Shown piece after piece: positions 2,936 to 15,080 of a stretch of DNA of 21,128 bases (within the stretch, counting starts at the first letter, position 1; each line of letters begins with the position of its first letter). The DNA is from a virus. The translations under genes were made by a program, and so were the position numbers. The stretch lies in the IMG/VR virus record IMGVR_UViG_3300042336_000423, positions 1 through 21,128 of that record; one strand, written 5' to 3'. The notes under the pieces are model-generated. The model saw nothing but the letters and a program-made list of their open reading frames with translations, was not told where the DNA came from and searched no databases.

Positions 2936-3844
2936 TTATAAATTTAATTTGTTTTTTAAATCGTTTATAACCCACTCGGGTCTTTCATTAATATCTTTTT
3001 CCCAATACCTAATTAATTGAATGTTGTGGTTTTTACACCAAGTATTTTTTCTTTTATCATTCGTGATATTTTTTTTCTGTATATCATATTTAACTTCACT
3101 ATAATCACTATTTGGGTTACAATGATAAAAATCACCATCAGTTTCTATTATAATTTTTTTTGAAGGTATATAAAAATCAAAAAAAGTTTTGATATTTATA
3201 ATCAAATAATTATGAATGTAGTCAACATTTTGTTTTAACCCCATTTCATTAAGAATAGTCATGAATCTATTTTCAAGTTTAGATGTTTTAACTTTGGAAT
3301 TTTCTCTCATCCATTTTAATCTAAAAATAGATTGATTAACTTTTAATTGTGGATTATCTCTATATCTTTTCTTTTGTGATTCTGATAATTTTTTCTTAGA
3401 TTGTTCTGTTTTAGGAATACCTTTTAATTTATCTGAAATTTTTTTACCCCTATTTTTGTCGTTTTTTAATTTTTCTTTTATACCATCAATTTTTTTAATT
3501 GTTTCAGGACTTTTATCTTCCCACCAACCTTTATACTTACCTAATTTCCAATTTTTCTTTTGGGTTTCAATAGCCTTCTGATGTGTTTCAGGATTTTTAT
3601 GAAAATTATTTTTTCCCGGAACTCTATTATGATGTGATAAAACAAACTTATTAAATCCTTTATTTATAGAAATAAAAGAAGGTTTTTCACCGCACCCACA
3701 ACCACAAGAAGGTATTTCCCCATTCAAAAAATAATCTGTATATATTTTCTCGGGGATAACTTCATGTTTTTGGTATGAGTGAGAACTTAAAGATTTTAAA
3801 TTTTCAAATTCTTTTTGACATATTTTACAAATAAAAATTCCCAT
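2936..3844 (-). CDS. Free-standing homing endonuclease (C2H2 finger + NUMOD3-like + Vsr/EDxHD-like nuclease)
   Basis: I start this gene at the internal ATG 3844 (MGIFICKICQKEF) rather than the upstream ATG 3913, because the zinc finger begins there and the extra 23 residues would run back into the tube gene; this gives 302 residues. Order: a classical C2H2 finger (CKIC, 12 residues, HSYQKH); a Cys cluster SCGCGCGEKP common in phage endonucleases; a basic region with NUMOD3-like repeats (KLKGIPKTEQSKKKLSESQK); and a C-terminal Vsr/DUF559-like nuclease domain with FDFYIPSKKIIIETDGDFYH, whose D, E, D and H residues match the EDxHD homing endonuclease family, then a Lys-rich helix and LIRYWEKDI. 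Such proteins cut a nearby allele lacking the insertion. It splits the tube gene from the gp26-like gene. The start codon lies inside a perfect hairpin. Confidence 0.85.
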   Translation of the reverse strand: MGIFICKICQKEFENLKSLSSHSYQKHEVIPEKIYTDYFLNGEIPSCGCGCGEKPSFISINKGFNKFVLSHHNRVPGKNNFHKNPETHQKAIETQKKNWKLGKYKGWWEDKSPETIKKIDGIKEKLKNDKNRGKKISDKLKGIPKTEQSKKKLSESQKKRYRDNPQLKVNQSIFRLKWMRENSKVKTSKLENRFMTILNEMGLKQNVDYIHNYLIINIKTFFDFYIPSKKIIIETDGDFYHCNPNSDYSEVKYDIQKKNITNDKRKNTWCKNHNIQLIRYWEKDINERPEWVINDLKNKLNL

Positions 3845-3864
3845 ATAAATAAATATATGGGAAT
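3837..3864 (-). promoter_or_regulatory. Perfect 11-bp hairpin enclosing the homing endonuclease start codon
   Basis: ATTCCCATATA (3837-3847) and TATATGGGAAT (3854-3864) are perfect inverted repeats with a 6-base loop. On the sense strand the 3' arm contains the ATG (3844-3842). A transcript entering from the tube gene would fold so that the start codon is paired. The element ATATTTAT, a putative late promoter, spans 3856-3849 within the same structure, so a transcript starting there would lack the 5' arm and leave the ATG free. The hairpin is seen directly; the switch is inferred. Confidence 0.65.
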
Positions 3865-3894
3865 ATAACAATATTGTAAATGGACAGATGTATT

Positions 3895-4383
3895 CTAATA
3901 CACGAGTATACAACGGTCCATTTGAAGTGAGGTTGTAATAGTCGCTAAACCGTCAGTTGTGTATCCCAAAGAGTCAAAGTTAACTGAAGTTAAAAATGCT
4001 CCTTCGATAATCCATTTTTCCACAACAACACCTGTTGGGTCTAACATTTCAAGGTCAACATTCTTTTTATAACCCGCAGCATAACCCATACGACCTGTTA
4101 CCGATTCAGCACATAAACGTACCCACTCCATAAGAGCCTGAGACGCAGATGGTCCGATAGGGTCACGGAATTTCACACTAATTGGATTCCATTTAAATCT
4201 ACCCGCAACATAAGTTGAAGTATTTAGGAAAGGTATTTCAGTCGCATTAACTGTTAAAGAGGGTCTTGCGGCAGTTTCAACAAACCATTCATTAATACCC
4301 AACGTAGAAGGAAATCTCATAATAAATCGATTCTGTCTTTTTGGTTCGTAGGGTATGGGCATTTTCATTAATAAATCAGCCAT
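3895..4383 (-). CDS. 19: Tail tube protein, T4 gp19-like
   Basis: A 162-residue protein, almost exactly the length of T4 gp19 (163). It begins MADLLMKMPIPYEPKRQNRF with a beta segment FIMRFPSTLGINEWFVETAA and contains the tube-type hallmarks FKWNPISVKFRDPIGPSASQ, then ALMEWVRLCAES and a MGYAAGYKKNVDLEMLDPTG segment leading to EKWIIEGAFLTSVNFDSLGY. This matches the contractile-tail tube fold, where hexameric rings stack inside the sheath. It lies downstream of the sheath gene as in T4, but with a HAD-like gene inserted between the two. A putative late element lies 40 nt upstream of the ATG. The assignment rests on length, motif pattern and position. Confidence 0.85.
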   Translation of the reverse strand: MADLLMKMPIPYEPKRQNRFIMRFPSTLGINEWFVETAARPSLTVNATEIPFLNTSTYVAGRFKWNPISVKFRDPIGPSASQALMEWVRLCAESVTGRMGYAAGYKKNVDLEMLDPTGVVVEKWIIEGAFLTSVNFDSLGYTTDGLATITTSLQMDRCILVY

Positions 4384-5354: not shown

Positions 5355-8300
5355 TTAGATGTTTTCAAAAGATGCTCCTGTTGGAGTAATATAGAATGTG
5401 ATATCTATAAATTCTAATGAACGTGTTGGTTTAATGTAAATCTTACCTGTCATTTGATTTCTGTCTAAATCAGCAGTATCTGAAGAAACTGTTACACGGA
5501 AATCGTATAAACCTCTATCTCTTCTGATAGCATCTAAGATAGGATTAACCGCGTCTAAGAAATCTTGTCTCACTTTATCATCGTTTTGTTCAAACAACAA
5601 TCTAACTGAAACCGCAGATATTAATTTACGAGCTTGTAACAATAATCTTCTTACGTTAATTCTGTCAAGAGCGGATTCTCTAATTTGAAGAGTTTTGTTA
5701 CCCCATATTACAGTTCCAACATCTGAGAAAGTTGCGATTGGGTTGATTCTTCCTTTATATAGAGTATCTCTATCTTCTTGAGTTAGTTTCTTTCTCGCTT
5801 TAATCGCGTTTACAATACCACGAGTGTAACCCGCTGCCGCGAACCAAGGGAATGCAATGTTATCAGTTAATGCTAAGTTTCTTGTAACTTCGGCAGTAGC
5901 TGGAAGGTAAATTTGTGTATTATTCACAGAATCTCTTGTTAACACCCAAGGATAATAAGTTGCGGTGTAGTTCGAATCAATTCCTGTTTGTTCTAAGTTA
6001 TCTACCGCCTCTTGTGGGTAAATTAAATCCGTAGATTCTCCCGCAGTTGGTGTAAACAAGTTGTAATCAGGTGTTGTTACAATATACAATGAGTCAGCTC
6101 TGTCGTTTTCAATCATGTCGATTGCACTTTCCGCTAAATCAGAGTTATTTAAATAATCAATACCAGGTGTTACAAACACGTTAATATTAACCGCTTCAGG
6201 ATTTGAGAATGTTTGTTGTCCTAAAAGGTATGCGTAATAGTCGGTATTCGCATAATCTACAGTGTTATCACCAACTGTAATTTGTTTGAAAGCTCCCCAA
6301 CCATTCGCCGTAGGGTATTTTAATGAAGGACATGCTCCTCTTAAATAACCACTTCTACCTAATACGAATCTATCACCATTTGTTCTATATTCTCTATAGA
6401 TGTCCCATCCGTCAAAACCACCACTACATAGTAATGAGAATTTACGTGCGAATAAACGATAGTAAGGACTTGTTTCCGAATCAGGGTCTGATGTGAAAGG
6501 TGCTGAACCTACATAGAATTCAGGAGTACCACTTGTTGTAAACAAATCAGGAATTGTAATACCTGACGCATTTATGTCCATATGGAAACCTCTTGTTTTA
6601 TAAAACCATTCTTCACCTGTAACGTCAGTACAAATATCTAATGGTAATTGTTTACCTTTGTATCCATAAAAATCAACATCAATACCGATTGTGTCAGAAA
6701 TACCTAAGTAAGTTCTTCTAACATTATCTCCACCACTTCTGATTAAATCATCGGCACCTGATGCCAAACCAAATGGAGGATTATAAACAACTTCACCAGG
6801 GAAATCATATTTTGTTTTGTAAATTGGGAATGGAGGTCTAACACCAGCATATTCTCTAAAGTTGTATCCTAAGAAACCACAAGGTAATGCGTCAATTGGT
6901 GCGTCTTCATTAATCTCAACCATTATGTATTTTGAATTCAATTGGTATTCACCATTTAATGTACCTATTTTTTTCGCTATAAAGTTATTTTGGTTAGGGT
7001 CCATTGAACAGTTTGTAAATTTCTCAATAACTACAGGGTTTGCATCCGAATCAAAGAAATCACGAACAATAACATCAAAAGTACCATTACCAAATGAAAT
7101 ATTAGCAATTGATATTTTAACTTCAGTATTAGCCGCATCACCGTCAGCAATTGTTGTAAACTTAAATAAGTTAAATACTTTACTACCTCTAAGTTCAGAT
7201 ACAACCCACGGAGACGCCGGTGATTGATATCTTTCCAAATACCAAGCAATACTAGTTGGGTCAAATCCTTGTCTTGCGTCAGGTAAAGCGGTAAGTTGAC
7301 AACTTAAACCTCTGATATAACCTTTTCTCCAACCATAAGTCAATAAAGTTTGGAATCTTTCTTCAACAAATAAAGGAGTTGTTGCTCTTGGTTTAGAAAA
7401 GTTAGAAGTACCAAATACTTTACTAATGTACTTAGGGTCTGAATTAGTAAATGAAGTTTCAAATACAAAATTTTGAGAATCTTTATTTGTTACATTTAAT
7501 GCGAATGTTGCAAAAGGATTTTTAGTAACCGCTGAATAAGTACCTGAACAATCCATAGTAACATCAGTTAAACCCGATACTTCGTAAACAGGACCATTAT
7601 CACTTGAATAAGTTGCAATACCTCTTGAACGTAATGTTGCAACAACTAAATCATCATAGTCTAAATACGCAGTTCCTGAGTAGATATAAACTCTACCAAC
7701 TAAACTACCGCTATAACATTTTGTAGGTCTTACAGTAGTTGATGTAGTTGTTGAAGTTGGTGTTGGTGTAACACAAGGATTAGTTGTGGTAGTTGTAGTC
7801 GAAGTACTTGTTGATGTGGTTGTAGTAGTTATGATTTCAGTTAAACCTGTAACTATTGACCAATATGAATAACCTGAATAAGCTCCTCCTCCATTATTAT
7901 CGAATAATGCGTAATACCAAGGGTCGTTATTTGGGTCAGAATAATTTGCGGTACCGGCATTTACACTGTCTAAATTAAATACGTTAGTATCTGCCGTGAA
8001 TGTTGGAGATAAAATATCATAATCGTTTTCAGTAATAACACCATAATAATAAATTGATTCTTGTTCCAAAGTTCCTGTGCCAAAAGCATAATCAACCATG
8101 ACATCATAAATTTGTGAATTTATGTTTTGATTTAAAGTTGATACAGAACCGTTAAACTGTTCGTAAGGTAAGTTTAATTTTGCAACAATTTCACTTGGAA
8201 TTTGAGATGGTGTTACAAAAGAAATTGAAGTTGTGTTATTTGTACATCCTGTAAAATCAATTACAAAATCAATTGTTTTAAAATCCACACATTCGGTAAC

Positions 8301-8699
8301 ACAATTAGTTGTAACCGCGCTCTCACAAAAGAAGTTAACAGTTGTTGGGTCTACATTAGCTTTAGTTATGATAGACCAAGAAGGTCCTGCATCATAACCT
8401 GATAAACCTAAAATTCTTGTTACGAATAATTGGTTTGATTGTTGTAAATATGATTTAGCAATGTACGCCGCCTCGTATTTAGGGATTTGTGTGTTTATAA
8501 ACTTCTCGGGAGACGTACCTCCAAAGAAAGTTGAAAATTCGTCAAAATTAGTGATGAAGATTGGTTCGAAAGCGGGACCTTTTTGAGTCTCACCAACAAT
8601 ACCTAGAGTTGTAACACCTACACTCTGTGCTACAAAACTTAAATCAACTTCAGAGGTATAAACCCCAGGTGATACGAATACTTTGTTGTTTGATGCCAT
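5355..8699 (-). CDS. 18: Contractile tail sheath protein, T4 gp18-like, enlarged
   Basis: A 1114-residue protein whose ends are typical sheath. The N-terminus has KVFVSPGVYTSEVDLSFVAQ and ETQKGPAFEPIFITNFDEFS, then FFGGTSPE. The C-terminus has NPIATFSDVGTVIWGNKTLQ, then INVRRLLLQARKLISAVSVR and a final KIYIKPTRSLEFIDITFYIT. These are the conserved inner domains that bind the tube and neighbouring subunits and drive contraction. T4 gp18 has about 659 residues, so roughly 450 extra residues are inserted in the middle. Between residues 291 and 326 lies a Thr-rich linker (22 of 36 residues Thr, with Ser and Pro), followed by a Cys-containing beta-rich segment. The insertions probably form surface domains on the outside of the sheath. 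No Shine-Dalgarno; a putative late element lies 31 nt upstream. Confidence 0.92.
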   Translation of the reverse strand: MASNNKVFVSPGVYTSEVDLSFVAQSVGVTTLGIVGETQKGPAFEPIFITNFDEFSTFFGGTSPEKFINTQIPKYEAAYIAKSYLQQSNQLFVTRILGLSGYDAGPSWSIITKANVDPTTVNFFCESAVTTNCVTECVDFKTIDFVIDFTGCTNNTTSISFVTPSQIPSEIVAKLNLPYEQFNGSVSTLNQNINSQIYDVMVDYAFGTGTLEQESIYYYGVITENDYDILSPTFTADTNVFNLDSVNAGTANYSDPNNDPWYYALFDNNGGGAYSGYSYWSIVTGLTEIITTTTTSTSTSTTTTTTNPCVTPTPTSTTTSTTVRPTKCYSGSLVGRVYIYSGTAYLDYDDLVVATLRSRGIATYSSDNGPVYEVSGLTDVTMDCSGTYSAVTKNPFATFALNVTNKDSQNFVFETSFTNSDPKYISKVFGTSNFSKPRATTPLFVEERFQTLLTYGWRKGYIRGLSCQLTALPDARQGFDPTSIAWYLERYQSPASPWVVSELRGSKVFNLFKFTTIADGDAANTEVKISIANISFGNGTFDVIVRDFFDSDANPVVIEKFTNCSMDPNQNNFIAKKIGTLNGEYQLNSKYIMVEINEDAPIDALPCGFLGYNFREYAGVRPPFPIYKTKYDFPGEVVYNPPFGLASGADDLIRSGGDNVRRTYLGISDTIGIDVDFYGYKGKQLPLDICTDVTGEEWFYKTRGFHMDINASGITIPDLFTTSGTPEFYVGSAPFTSDPDSETSPYYRLFARKFSLLCSGGFDGWDIYREYRTNGDRFVLGRSGYLRGACPSLKYPTANGWGAFKQITVGDNTVDYANTDYYAYLLGQQTFSNPEAVNINVFVTPGIDYLNNSDLAESAIDMIENDRADSLYIVTTPDYNLFTPTAGESTDLIYPQEAVDNLEQTGIDSNYTATYYPWVLTRDSVNNTQIYLPATAEVTRNLALTDNIAFPWFAAAGYTRGIVNAIKARKKLTQEDRDTLYKGRINPIATFSDVGTVIWGNKTLQIRESALDRINVRRLLLQARKLISAVSVRLLFEQNDDKVRQDFLDAVNPILDAIRRDRGLYDFRVTVSSDTADLDRNQMTGKIYIKPTRSLEFIDITFYITPTGASFENI
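7720..7830 (-). repeat. Thr/Ser-rich low-complexity codon tract in the sheath gene
   Basis: Repeated ACT, ACA and ACC codons encode residues 291-326 of the sheath (TTTTTSTSTSTTTTTTNPCV and onward). On the plus strand it shows as gttgttg/gtagttg runs. It resembles an extended, possibly glycosylated linker between domains and is a likely place for length change by replication slippage. Confidence 0.7.
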
Positions 8700-10018: not shown

Positions 10019-10534
10019 TTATAATCCTCTGAATTCATTGTTAACTACCGCAGATGCAATTATTGACCTATAAAATGGCCTTGTTCCTGCGTAAGTGTGT
10101 TTATTATCTGATATAACACGACCATCATTCACAACAGTATAATATCTCACTCTTGTTTCTGACTCGTAATAACCAATATAATCCCCTATATTAATATCAA
10201 TATCCAATCCTTCAAGTTGGTTTTGATATACTCCAACTTTTAAATTACCGGGTTCTATTTGATTAATTTTACTGTTACCAATATTTTTGTTTTCAGGTTG
10301 AATAATTTGAACATACCCTTTAAATTCAACAGGGGGTAAAAATTTTATACCGTCCATAAGAGTTTCACCATACACATCATCGGTTTTAGTTTTTTGTCTA
10401 TCAACACGATATAATACTAAAGTAAAATTCATATCACCGTACAACCATTCTTGGCCGATTCCAACATCTAAATTGAAATCTTCGTCTCCAAAAAATTTTC
10501 CAAGACGAGTTATAGGAACTTTATGCTCTGACAT
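10019..10534 (-). CDS. Neck protein, gp14-like
   Basis: I start the gene at ATG 10534 (MSEHKVPITRLGKFFGDEDF), not at an upstream ATG 10636 that would run through the divergent helicase start. This gives 171 residues. Features reminiscent of T4 gp14 are NFTLVLYRVDRQKTKTDDVY with GETLMDGIKFLPPVEFKGYV, a middle linker, and a DIDINIGDYIGYYESE segment resembling the GDLIYFP-type motif near the end of gp14 proteins. T4 gp14 is longer (256 residues). The gp15-like gene follows 3 nt downstream. The gp13-like partner is encoded on the opposite strand about 3.4 kb away, so the T4 order 13-14-15 is split here. The putative late element is only 4 nt before the ATG. Confidence 0.5.
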   Translation of the reverse strand: MSEHKVPITRLGKFFGDEDFNLDVGIGQEWLYGDMNFTLVLYRVDRQKTKTDDVYGETLMDGIKFLPPVEFKGYVQIIQPENKNIGNSKINQIEPGNLKVGVYQNQLEGLDIDINIGDYIGYYESETRVRYYTVVNDGRVISDNKHTYAGTRPFYRSIIASAVVNNEFRGL

Positions 10535-10538
10535 ATTG

Positions 10539-10546
10539 ATAAATAT
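10539..10546 (-). promoter_or_regulatory. ATATTTAT element 4 nt before the gp14-like start
   Basis: The sense strand reads AATATTTATCAATATG, with the ATG of the gp14-like gene at the end. Spacing of 4 nt is the same as at 3844 and 15740. If the element works like a -10 box, the message would be leaderless or nearly so. Confidence 0.4.
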
Positions 10547-10589
10547 TAAAAAGTTTACTATTTTTATATTAAAACTTTTTTTTAGTGTT

Positions 10590-12353
10590 TTGATTACTGG
10601 ACAATCAATAAATCTTATCGAACAAAACGCACTCAAAATACTTGAGTCATATTCAGGTGCAAATAATTATATTCTCCGTATTCAAAATCAAATGAATACT
10701 AATAAAAAATTTTATCCGACAAGAGCTCAATCAGAATACATAATTAATTATCATGAAGTTACTCCTAAAATCGGAAAGAAATGGGTTGATTTAGACCCTT
10801 ATTTCGCCAAGAAAATTGCGGATGAAAAATTATATACAACCATACCAGAACAAGTTTGGATTGAAAAATTGTTAGTTGAAAAAGATAAATCTTACCATGT
10901 ATGGGGAAAAGTTTTTTCAGGAGAAACTATCCATGATTTTTGGTTACCAAAAGGAGCTATAATCAAAACTCATACAATACAAAAAGTTGAAATTGATTAC
11001 ACAAAATATTCTCACAGACCTCCTTTGAATCATCAAAAAGAATCAATTGAAAAGTTAGCTAGTTCTAAAAGATACATCTTAGCCGATGATATGGGGTTAG
11101 GAAAAACGACAAGTACTATTATTGCCGCCTTAGAAACGGGTTCAAAGAAAATCTTAATTATTTGTCCCGCATCATTGAAAATCAATTGGGAGAGAGAAAT
11201 TAGAAATTATACCGATAGAAGTGTATACATCGCCGAAGGAAAAAACTTTTCAACCGACTCTGATTTTTTAATTGTAAATTATGACATTTTAAAGAATTTT
11301 TACGATTTAAAAGAAAAAGAAAGTTCGATATTTTCTAAGTTTAAACCCGAATTAATTATCTTAGATGAGGCACATTACGTTTCAAACGCTCAATCCCAAA
11401 GAACAAAATTAGTTAATAGTTTTTGTAAAAAAGTTGATATATTATGGTTGTTAACAGGAACACCAATGACTTCAAGACCGATGAACTATTATAATTTGTT
11501 GAACCTAATTGAAAGTCCCGTTGCTCAAAATTGGATGGCTTACGCCATTAGATATTGTCAAGGTTATCAATTTAGAGCTGGTAAAAGAAAAGTTTGGAAT
11601 GTAAGCGGGGCATCTAATTTAGAAGAATTAAGAGATAGAACTTCCAAACAGGTTCTAAGAAGATTAAAAACTGAAGTTTTAGATTTACCTGATAAAATCA
11701 TTACACCAGTATATTTGAGATTGAAGTCCAAGTTATATGAAGGATTGATGGGAGAATACTATGATTGGTACAATAAGGGAAATGATGAAACAAATTCCTT
11801 AACAATCCAATTCTCTAAACTAATGAAAGTTAGACAAATTATCTCTGAAGAAAAAGTTGATAACACAATCGAATTGGTTCAAAATATTCTTGACCAAGAT
11901 AAAAAAGTTATTGTTTTTACCAACTTCACAAATACATTAAACAAAATTGCTGACCACTTTGGAAAGTCGGCAGTCAGATTAGATGGGTCAACATCAAAAA
12001 TACAAAGACAACATTCAGTTGACCAATTCCAAGAAAACGACAAGATTAAAGTTTTTGTCGGAAATTTACAAGCCGCAGGTGTGGGAATCACATTAACGGC
12101 AGGTGAGGCAGTAATTTTTAATGATTTATCATTTGTACCCGCACACCATCAACAAGCGGAAGATAGAGCTTACAGATACGGACAAAAAAATAATGTCTCA
12201 GTATATTATCCTATATTTGAAAATACCATAGAAGGTATCATTTACGACATGTTATCCAAGAAAAAAAATATTATCGACACAGTAATGGGTGATAATTTAG
12301 ACAAGGCTGATTTCATAGAAGAAATTATGAATAGAATTAATTCGATAAGATAA
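10590..12353 (+). CDS. SNF2-family DNA helicase/translocase (SMARCAL1/HepA-like)
   Basis: The ORF is open from ATG 10473, but that start would overlap the divergent gp14-like gene. Conserved-looking sequence begins around EQNALKILESYSGANNYILR, so I use TTG 10590 (587 residues); the first internal ATG is 10692 and would cut that segment. Domains: an N-terminal region (WVDLDPYFAKKIADEKLYTT, then IPEQVWIEKLLVEKDKSYHV), helicase lobe 1 with DDMGLGKTTST (Walker A, about residues 166-176), LIILDEAHYVSN (motif II) and LLTGTPMTSRP (motif III), and lobe 2 with KVIVFTNF, RLDGSTSK, GNLQAAGVGITLTAGEAVIF and QAEDRAYRYGQ. This is the SNF2 hallmark. Likely roles are fork remodelling, recombination or removal of bound proteins during phage replication. 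It precedes the SOD fusion gene by 41 nt on the same strand. Confidence 0.9.
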   Translation: MITGQSINLIEQNALKILESYSGANNYILRIQNQMNTNKKFYPTRAQSEYIINYHEVTPKIGKKWVDLDPYFAKKIADEKLYTTIPEQVWIEKLLVEKDKSYHVWGKVFSGETIHDFWLPKGAIIKTHTIQKVEIDYTKYSHRPPLNHQKESIEKLASSKRYILADDMGLGKTTSTIIAALETGSKKILIICPASLKINWEREIRNYTDRSVYIAEGKNFSTDSDFLIVNYDILKNFYDLKEKESSIFSKFKPELIILDEAHYVSNAQSQRTKLVNSFCKKVDILWLLTGTPMTSRPMNYYNLLNLIESPVAQNWMAYAIRYCQGYQFRAGKRKVWNVSGASNLEELRDRTSKQVLRRLKTEVLDLPDKIITPVYLRLKSKLYEGLMGEYYDWYNKGNDETNSLTIQFSKLMKVRQIISEEKVDNTIELVQNILDQDKKVIVFTNFTNTLNKIADHFGKSAVRLDGSTSKIQRQHSVDQFQENDKIKVFVGNLQAAGVGITLTAGEAVIFNDLSFVPAHHQQAEDRAYRYGQKNNVSVYYPIFENTIEGIIYDMLSKKKNIIDTVMGDNLDKADFIEEIMNRINSIR

Positions 12354-12394: not shown

Positions 12395-13933
12395 ATGAAA
12401 AAAATACAAGAAAAAATCGAAGTCATCGAAAAACAACTTGTCTTAGAAGAAAAAAAAGTAGAACAAAAACTTTTCTTAAATGAAATGAAAAAAATTGGGA
12501 TTGATAAACTCCCTTACGCCTATACTGCTCTAAAACAATTTATTGACGCTGAAACAATGGAATACCATTATAATAAGCATTATAAAGGTTATGTTGATAA
12601 GTTGAACGCGGCGCTTTCTAAGAAAGATTACGGTGATTTAGAACTAGAACAAATGATTAAATCTATTAGTAGATTTAATAAAACAATCAGGAATAATGCG
12701 GGGGGAGCATTTAATCACGCTCTTTTTTGGAAAATGTTATCACCAAAAAAACAAAAACCAACCGAGGTAATTTCAAAATTAATTAATAAAGACTTCAAAT
12801 CATTCCAAGGATTTAAAACAAAGTTTGAAGAAGTTGCAAAAGAAAGATTTGGTTCGGGATGGGTTTGGTTAGTATTAACAAACAAAAATACTTTAAAAAT
12901 TTTATCTACGCCCAACCAAGACAATCCTCTTATGAATGTTATTGATAACGGTGGGTATCCTTTGTTAGGTTTAGATTTGTGGGAACACGCATATTATTTA
13001 AAATACAGAAACAAAAGAGATGATTATATTAAAAACTTTTGGAATTGTGTTAATTGGGAATTTGTTGAAAAGTTATATAAAATGAAAGTGAAAACTAAAA
13101 TAGAAGAAAGTAATTATTTAAAAACCATTATAAAAGAAGGTGTTTCTCAAAAATGTAGTAGAGAAATGAAAGAATCTATCAGATTTATCTTCAACGTAAA
13201 TCCTTCAGTTAAAAACATTTTTAGAAAAGGTATTGACGAAATTTTAAAAGAAGTATTCAAAGACAAATATTTTGACAAAGACCAATATGAAAAAGGAAGT
13301 ATGTCAGGAATTTACGACTTGGAAAGAAGTGGTAGGTCAGTAATTAATAAATTAAACACCAACTATAATGGGTTTTGTGTGTTACTACAAGATGTTAATA
13401 AAGTTTTAGTTAGTCAAAACAAACCTGAAATACGTTTAGTTGGACTCAAACCATTTGAACAAATAAGTGAAACCAAAAAATTTATTAATTTGATTCATAA
13501 TTACAGGTTTAGGATTTTTTCAACCAATTCGTCAACATTTCAGAATATAATGTCACTTTTAACTGAAACAGATAAATGGGGTGAAAAAACTGAAGATGAA
13601 ACTATCAAAATATTGAAGAAAAAATTTGGTGACGAAAACGTTGAGAAAATTGGGGAGTTAGGTGGTAAACAAGATATGATTGCCGGAATTGATTGTGAAA
13701 TAATTATTAATGGTCAAAAATTAACCGCACAAATTAAACCGTTTTCTAAAATTGAGGAAACTGACGATTCAATCACAATATTCGATACTGGTCAAGTTAA
13801 AAAATATTATACTAACTTATTAATATTTTCGAAGAAAAACAAAGAAATTTTAGTGTTCAATAATAAAAATTCTAAAATTGTTGACGGTAATTTTGTTTTT
13901 CCAAAAAGTGATTTGATTTATAGCTTGAGTTGA
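12395..13933 (+). CDS. Mn/Fe superoxide dismutase fused to a long nuclease-like C-terminal region
   Basis: A 512-residue protein. Residues 1-33 are a charged coiled-coil-like helix. Residues about 34-229 form a complete Fe/Mn superoxide dismutase: ligand H58 in METMEYHYNKHYKGYV-type motif (sequence TMEYHYNKHYKGYV), H108 in NNAGGAFNHALFW, and D194 and H198 in LGLDLWEHAYYLKY. Q175 in STPNQDNPLM and the GG before AFNH are features of the manganese subtype. SOD converts superoxide to H2O2 and O2. Residues about 235-512 are unlike any SOD. Their last 110 residues read KKKFGDENVEKIGELGGKQD (D427), GID (D433), then LTAQIKPF with Q446-x-K448, the layout of a PD-(D/E)XK nuclease core with Gln replacing the usual Glu. 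There is no signal peptide. The nuclease call is tentative; the frame is unbroken and base use is the same throughout. Confidence 0.88.
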   Translation: MKKIQEKIEVIEKQLVLEEKKVEQKLFLNEMKKIGIDKLPYAYTALKQFIDAETMEYHYNKHYKGYVDKLNAALSKKDYGDLELEQMIKSISRFNKTIRNNAGGAFNHALFWKMLSPKKQKPTEVISKLINKDFKSFQGFKTKFEEVAKERFGSGWVWLVLTNKNTLKILSTPNQDNPLMNVIDNGGYPLLGLDLWEHAYYLKYRNKRDDYIKNFWNCVNWEFVEKLYKMKVKTKIEESNYLKTIIKEGVSQKCSREMKESIRFIFNVNPSVKNIFRKGIDEILKEVFKDKYFDKDQYEKGSMSGIYDLERSGRSVINKLNTNYNGFCVLLQDVNKVLVSQNKPEIRLVGLKPFEQISETKKFINLIHNYRFRIFSTNSSTFQNIMSLLTETDKWGEKTEDETIKILKKKFGDENVEKIGELGGKQDMIAGIDCEIIINGQKLTAQIKPFSKIEETDDSITIFDTGQVKKYYTNLLIFSKKNKEILVFNNKNSKIVDGNFVFPKSDLIYSLS

Positions 13934-13958: not shown

Positions 13959-15080
13959 ATGGCAATCATAGCAGAACCAGAAAGAAGTAAATTATATACT
14001 AGATTAAGACATCAATTAGGTGCTCCACTTCGTAGTGTAGAATTGGAAGATGAACAATTAGATTCATTATTGGAACTCTCAATCGAGGATTATTCACAAT
14101 ATGTTCAAGATTGGTTAATCGAGTCTCAATGGACTTCTCTTTGGGGATTAAATTTGGATACACAATCTTTAACGAGAGCTTTCACAACAAAAAGTTTAGA
14201 TTATGAAACAAGATACACTTACGCATATTCTAAGATAGTTGGTTTACAGGCTGGTGGTGATTGGGTTTTGAAAAAAGATTACATACAACTTGCTCCAAAT
14301 CAACAAATTTACGAAATACCGGCAAATAGAGAGTTAAATGAATTATTATGGTTTACACCAAACGCATTAAATAATGTATTGTTTGACCCTTGGTCTTTTG
14401 GAGCTTTAGGAGGTGCTGGTTTTGGTGGACCTGCGGGTTATTCCCAAATGGGTGCCATTGGTTCATATTTTATGATGCCGGGTTTTGATATGATGTTGAG
14501 AATGCAAGACATCAATTTAAAAAGAAGAATTATTGGTGGTGATTTAACATATCGAATAACCGCTCTTCCTGATGGTAAAAAGGCGGTTCACCTAATGAAC
14601 ACACCAGGTGGTAAATTTGACTTTGGTAATGCCACTTTAATGAACGGTAAAGTTTGGTATTGGTATTATGATACTGAAGGTTCTGATAGAGATAAATGTT
14701 TAAAGGATAATCCCGATATTATAAAATTACCTTCAGATGTTCCATTTGATAAAATTAATTGGGTTGATTTAAATAATCCGGCACAAATTTGGGTTCGTAG
14801 ATGGTTTTTTGCTTACGCTAAAGAAACTTTATCAAGAGTTAGAGGTAAATTTAGTGGTAACTTAAAAACACCTGATTCTGAATTAACCATGGATTATTCC
14901 TCATTAGCAACTGAAGCTAAGGATGAAAAATCAAAATTAATTGAAGAACTTATTGGTGCTGAAGGTCGTTTAACAAGACTAAAACCTGAAAAAGTAATGG
15001 AACGTGAGGCAAATATTGCAGAAAACTTAAATAAGTCTCTGAAATATAGGGCAATGCCAAGACAAATTTACGTAATTTAA
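13959..15080 (+). CDS. Neck protein, gp13-like
   Basis: A 373-residue protein. The N-terminal helix region LYTRLRHQLGAPLRSVELED followed by EQLDSLLELSIEDYSQY matches the LxxxLGAPxxxxELxxxQLxxxIxxAxxxY pattern of T4 gp13 and related head-to-tail connector proteins. The middle has YIQLAPNQQIYEIPANRELN and a Gly/Met-rich segment (about residues 149-178), then a beta-rich region and NPAQIWVRRWFFAYAKETLS. The C-terminal third is helical and charged. T4 gp13 is 309 residues. In T4, gp13 and gp14 assemble on the portal vertex after DNA packaging to form the neck. Here it is separated from the gp14-like gene by two non-structural genes on the opposite strand. A small gene follows 2 nt after its stop. 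Confidence 0.75.
   Translation: MAIIAEPERSKLYTRLRHQLGAPLRSVELEDEQLDSLLELSIEDYSQYVQDWLIESQWTSLWGLNLDTQSLTRAFTTKSLDYETRYTYAYSKIVGLQAGGDWVLKKDYIQLAPNQQIYEIPANRELNELLWFTPNALNNVLFDPWSFGALGGAGFGGPAGYSQMGAIGSYFMMPGFDMMLRMQDINLKRRIIGGDLTYRITALPDGKKAVHLMNTPGGKFDFGNATLMNGKVWYWYYDTEGSDRDKCLKDNPDIIKLPSDVPFDKINWVDLNNPAQIWVRRWFFAYAKETLSRVRGKFSGNLKTPDSELTMDYSSLATEAKDEKSKLIEELIGAEGRLTRLKPEKVMEREANIAENLNKSLKYRAMPRQIYVI

Follow-up and report, generated by a model that had tools for sequence, protein, structure and literature searches.

Introduction

The internal head proteins that phage T4 ejects (IPI, IPII, IPIII and Alt) begin with a tag whose end is [IL]xE, followed by a dispensable enzyme (PMC7411985, PMC9958956, PMC5694885). 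The T4 protease gp21 strips the N-terminal targeting peptide from the IPs and Alt, both of which are then ejected into the host (PMC7411985); it cuts after [IL]xE, the sites in Alt being ITE-6 and LTE-619 (PMC5694885). Among the enzymes relevant here, viral Fe/Mn superoxide dismutase (SOD) has been proposed to act as an auxiliary metabolic gene, buffering reactive oxygen (PMC12542629), and the DREN nuclease of SPARDA uses the catalytic residues D41, Q60 and K62, a D...QxK set (PMC12205087). In the open-access literature searched, SOD homologues have been reported in poxviruses, and no report of a SOD–nuclease fusion was found. Here we describe such a chain, a SOD joined to a predicted nuclease, in a window of 21,128 nucleotides that comprises positions 1 to 21,128 of IMG/VR record IMGVR_UViG_3300042336_000423.

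Organization and spread of the fusion gene

The gene and its two neighbours are arranged as follows (window coordinates).

10473..12353, plus strand: SNF2/UvsW-like helicase, conserved upstream neighbour (PF00176, 1.4e-30)
12395..13933, plus strand: whole gene, tag–SOD–linker–nuclease, 512 aa
12395..12484, plus strand: N-terminal helical tag (residues 1–30) ending in FLNE, with E30 followed by an invariant MK; putative capsid-targeting propeptide
12500..13072, plus strand: Fe/Mn superoxide dismutase domain, apparently Mn-type (residues 36–226)
13097..13144, plus strand: linker (residues 235–250) with [LI]xE at E238 and E248; putative prohead-protease sites
13145..13579, plus strand: mainly helical region (residues 251–395) with a GRSVxNKLNTN motif, from AlphaFold2 models and conservation
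13580..13930, plus strand: PD-(D/E)XK fold domain (residues 396–512) with D433 and Q446-x-K448, from fold comparison and conservation
13959..15080, plus strand: gp13-like neck protein, conserved downstream neighbour (head-tail adaptor Ad2/gp13-like, phrog_211, 1.4e-9)

The sequence-only reading of this DNA had described one unbroken fusion chain between a SNF2 helicase and a gp13-like neck gene, and both parts of that description hold. The chain is a single open frame of 512 codons with no internal stop and, because the SOD fusion is present in 148 of the 159 loci with the C-terminal domain, a read error or missing stop is excluded as its origin. The neighbours are confirmed by the PF00176 and phrog_211 matches, the neck gene starts after a gap of 25 bp, and the same helicase upstream and the same neck gene downstream were found at each of the 28 loci examined, of which 26 have the SOD and two lack it. 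The further claim that no SOD has such an extension was nearly right, but a 501-aa phage protein with the same C-terminal fold, A0A6J5L953, annotated merely as 'superoxide dismutase', is already in the viral structure library. No T4 late promoter (TATAAATA) lies just upstream of the gene, the window as a whole containing seven against 4.5 expected, and PADLOC returned no convincing defence match.

Two other genes of the window are recorded here for their own sake. A 325-aa protein encoded between tail genes (2936–3913, minus strand) combines a C2H2 finger with a weak DUF559 match and resembles a free-standing homing endonuclease, and a 1114-aa protein, sheath-like by eye (5355–8699, minus strand), contains a Thr/Ser-rich low-complexity insert (TTTTTSTSTSTTTTTTNPC...).

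Relatives of the fusion protein are encoded by at least 597 IMG/VR stretches, many of them on contigs that are near-copies of one another, so that such numbers do not count separate events; the best 80 of the at least 597 are all full-length fusions, 57–100% identical. Two of the relative-bearing contigs measure 322 kb each, and the carriers are a large group of uncultivated T4-related giant phages. The nearest bacterial SODs come mostly from Bacteroidota (45–54% identity), and Bacteroidota is a plausible host phylum. Beside the capsid gene of one relative (L169:2699-6558) lie Bacteroidota-like signal-peptide proteins, one of them subtilase-like by eye, which fits such a host.

The superoxide dismutase domain

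The first half of the chain had been read as an intact Mn-type SOD, which is borne out by Pfam, by structure-database sequences and by conservation. Both the alpha-hairpin and the C-terminal domain of Fe/Mn SOD are found (Sod_Fe_N, PF00081, E=6e-24, residues 36–116; Sod_Fe_C, PF02777, E=2.5e-39, residues 123–226), and the best PDB sequence match is the superoxide dismutase 6gsc (E=7e-61, residues 38–231). The three histidine and one aspartate ligands (H58, H108, D194 and H198) and Q175 are invariant among the best 80 of the at least 597 relatives. Across 86 distinct SOD domains of the wider family this invariance extends, beyond these five, to H62, Y66, W156, W158, E197 and Y201, which include second-sphere residues. 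The position of the glutamine, Q175, suggests the Mn type, and with this full set of residues the domain is very probably active.

Like bacterial Mn/Fe SODs of the Bacteroidota type, the phage domain has all ligands and the outer-sphere glutamine. In contrast to these, the phage SODs bear the tag and C-terminal modules, and they form one cluster apart from the bacterial enzymes, with support of 100/99 in a tree whose bootstrap is not fully settled. Standalone Fe/Mn SODs are also borne by Vibrio phage 2.275.O and the Pseudomonas phage PA5oct group; they are 27–29% identical to the query, and the Vibrio phage locus inspected encodes a single-domain SOD with no nuclease partner there.

The C-terminal domain

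Residues 235–512 have no sequence match beyond chance level in Pfam, PHROGs or the PDB, with single sequences or profiles; a match of the C-terminal region to arenavirus nucleoprotein (E=0.034), covering 58 residues outside the nuclease core, was taken as chance. The region is modelled by AlphaFold2 with a mean pLDDT of 85.7. In VIA-align, residues ~396–512 are closest to Hjc resolvases (Z 8.5, rmsd 3.4 over 100 residues), followed by SPARDA (7.7), I-Ssp6803I (7.2) and several restriction enzymes. A Z near 8 is weak by itself and marks a match at superfamily level (the Foldseek E is just 0.015), but the top VIA-align rows are nearly all PD-(D/E)XK enzymes.

The superfamily motif is present as an acidic residue at beta2 and QxK in beta3: D433 lies at the start of beta2, just before the strand of residues 434–438, and Q446 and K448 lie in beta3 (residues 441–449), the clustering of D427, D433, Q446 and K448 being judged from these secondary-structure positions. 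All four residues are invariant among the best 80 of the at least 597 relatives, and a diverged nuclease paralogue with 27% identity retains E400, D427, D433, Q446, K448 and P449. Thus the PD-(D/E)XK layout that had been guessed from the letters is supported by the VIA-align ranking and by the D...Q-x-K set held in common with SPARDA. We conclude that a PD-(D/E)XK fold with an intact D...QxK site is supported for residues ~396–512, and on this model the domain probably cleaves DNA.

The domain resembles DREN, I-Ssp6803I and Hjc in fold, and DREN also in its D...QxK layout. It differs from all three in having no detectable sequence similarity to them and in its extra helical region of ~145 residues with the GRSVxNKLNTN motif. 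A pattern-based scan of ~85,000 bacterial and archaeal genomes confirmed no relatives of the C-terminal domain, tblastn against cultured phages gave a best E of about 2, and a profile of the nuclease core alone is too diverse to use for scanning.

That the top fold matches are Hjc resolvases, and that a helicase is the constant neighbour, would suit a nuclease acting mainly in packaging or recombination together with the UvsW-like helicase, as a stand-in for T4 endonuclease VII, with the SOD as a protective rider; in three relatives, moreover, no endonuclease VII was found above the cut-off and no RuvC. The catalytic motif of Hjc, however, is ExK. The domain has an invariant QxK instead, with no Pfam match above cut-off in the region, and the Z near 8 places it in the superfamily at large. 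Since the domain also gives way to unrelated ones, or is missing, in several relatives at the same locus, as would be unlikely for an essential resolvase, we regard this role as improbable.

Exchange and loss of domains at the locus

The tag and SOD are nearly constant between the helicase and neck genes, whereas the part C-terminal to them varies: 41 SOD-bearing loci have no C-terminus of the query type. What they have instead is given below.

L314 type: tandem QxK nucleases, distantly related to the query nuclease
L316 type: one such distantly related QxK nuclease
L351, L356 and L381: a different domain with SPYDV..ISCK, PD-(D/E)XK-like by eye only
L315: a domain of no recognised family, unrelated to that of L314
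L338: a short domain
Other SOD-bearing relatives, for example the SOD-only L386 and L355: no C-terminal domain

The L314 and L315 proteins are sisters in the SOD tree and yet have unrelated C-termini, and the joint is therefore a swap point. The C-terminal domain is thus one of several interchangeable modules, a property not visible to the sequence-only reading.

The SOD itself has been lost at least twice, as judged from the tree and alignments, in the L105 type, which resembles a SOD-bearing relative more closely than the 93% clustering cut-off, and in L146, which falls among SOD-bearing rows with moderate support. The SOD-less variants retain the tag and an E248-type site before the nuclease (SINE/MKK..IISE/G in L105 and ILSE/S in L146, each slash following the glutamate).

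At the other end of the chain, a HExxH metallopeptidase-like domain is fused N-terminally in 26 of 226 loci, and a relative 51–60% identical to it is a separate 129-aa gene in genomes G001, G002 and G007; Pfam gave sub-threshold matches only for this domain. In L339 (2596-4119) it stands ahead of the SOD (HEWVHAHQ...GPDIGGQNEDEAN). The C-terminal module of the L339 fusion recurs as downstream genes with the leader MKIIISE/SQYKLIKE. Three consecutive small genes at L339:4103-5567 each have the MKIIISE leader, and two of them nearly duplicate the C-terminal module of the fusion, in a local duplication array.

These losses and swaps bear on whether the protein is a structural component of the neck or tail, with the SOD and nuclease folds as inert building blocks. 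The gene order beside gp13 would agree with that, but variants exist that lack or exchange one or the other module, and the full catalytic sets of both are invariant, which makes inert folds very improbable.

[LI]xE motifs at the joints

The joints are marked by short conserved motifs that match the T4 prohead-protease consensus, [LI]xE. The motif occurs at E30 in all 27 non-redundant sequences and in 71 of 73 distinct types, and at E238 and E248 in 26 of 27 non-redundant sequences, with Leu or Ile (rarely Met) two residues before each glutamate. E30, E238 and E248 stand out within the two stretches of pLDDT below 50 (AlphaFold2, entropy table), where the flanking linker drifts and the glutamates stay. 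The P1' residue is Met at the E30 site and Ala, Ser or Gly at the others. In L314, the doublet recurs with 10-residue spacing between the two nuclease domains (KLME/SIRIIKE/E and KLTE/STRKNRLLLE/G); L351, L356 and L315 have a single linker motif only, and no motif follows the SOD in the SOD-only L386 and L355.

We note that [LI]xE is a weak motif for which genome-wide controls are mixed; it also occurs at the SOD active site (E197), by necessity. Internal doublets in three relatives number 8–9 against 6–7 in shuffled sequences, barely above expectation; at N-termini, doublets exceed the shuffled level about six- to twelvefold in the genome-wide control. An enrichment of single [LI]xE motifs at residues 6–10 in the relatives had looked like a genome-wide targeting signal, but it is specific neither to this spacing, LxxE being enriched too, nor to these phages, T4 and an E. 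coli stretch having it as well, and it is left out of the argument.

This weakness of the motif genome-wide favours an enzyme that is made during infection and never packaged, its SOD buffering superoxide in the cell as proposed for viral Fe/Mn SOD (PMC12542629), its nuclease degrading host DNA or processing phage DNA, and its [LI]xE reflecting helix or linker chemistry; that phages carry SOD as separate genes points the same way. We consider this rather unlikely, however, as it does not account for the retention of the three glutamates despite linker drift, for the tag and site kept in SOD-less variants, or for the reappearance of the linker doublet between modules, and the gene sits in a structural block beside gp13.

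An S77 prohead protease of the gp21 family (PF03420) is present in relatives G001, G002 and G004; it was not found in three shorter relative contigs, and the window, at 21 kb, does not include the head operon. The major capsid proteins of G001, G002 and G007 have SFLINE/A or SHLINE/A where T4 gp23 has SFLTE/A (equivalence by eye). In G002, the swapped nuclease has a standalone relative, whose leader is MKITISE/GQYKILSE/Y and which lies between the protease and scaffold genes.

In a 322-kb phage, a 318-aa QVKPF nuclease paralogue (L168:18104-19060) is flanked directly by the genes for the gp21-type protease and the scaffold. In G001, G002 and G007 (loci L163-L178 and L194-L225), many otherwise unrelated small proteins have common N-terminal leaders of ~22 residues (for example MKKVIRLTESDLxxLVKRIINEQ, MNLQENIHRIHQMMGVINE and MKKxxITEEEKxxIKSLYNLTEQ), which are possibly capsid-targeting leaders, the controls being mixed.

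Discussion

An injected virion protein was among the meanings first offered for this gene, and that idea gains indirect support from the conservation of the [LI]xE sites, from the genes around this one and from the paralogue that a relative has within its head operon. We tentatively favour a modular internal-head (ejection) protein whose precursor would be cleaved at maturation and whose SOD and nuclease would be injected, though we hold this at somewhat less than even confidence. The enzyme domains are identified from sequence and models, and we infer each step of their delivery. The precursor would be brought into the prohead core by its tag and [LI]xE sites, in the manner of the T4 capsid targeting sequence; a gp21-type protease would cut behind E30 and behind E238/E248 as the head matures, freeing SOD and nuclease; and both would remain inside the head and pass into the cell along with the DNA. 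There the SOD would clear superoxide at entry, shielding incoming DNA or metal enzymes such as iron–sulphur proteins; the nuclease would cut DNA of the host, a competitor or a plasmid. For packaging of the fusion protein in the virion, the sequence leaves the balance about even, and the same evenly poised judgement applies to cleavage of the precursor at E30, E238 and E248; injection of SOD and nuclease for action early in infection is a possibility we consider somewhat doubtful.

The likeness to T4 IPs and Alt comprises a putative N-terminal propeptide of ~30 residues with an [IL]xE end (71 of 73 types) and a phage group in which three relatives encode a gp21-type protease, and the SOD-less L105 and L146, with tag and site before the nuclease, have an Alt-like layout. 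The differences are that the cargo is a SOD and a nuclease and that there are several enzyme domains per chain with [LI]xE in the linkers. More speculatively, and with rather low confidence, the gene may encode a capsid-delivered, self-partitioning polyprotein from which the prohead protease would yield (a metallopeptidase,) SOD and nuclease, with the C-terminal slot as a recombination site that swaps effectors injected with an antioxidant enzyme; such effectors possibly counter host defences or rival phages.

The swaps at putative protease joints suggest a modular enzyme package inside the virus particle. If the protein is packaged, an antioxidant enzyme would join the injected phage proteins, T4-style ejection proteins would come to include multi-enzyme precursors whose effector slot is swappable, and a sequence signature would be available for spotting further effectors that uncultivated giant phages inject.
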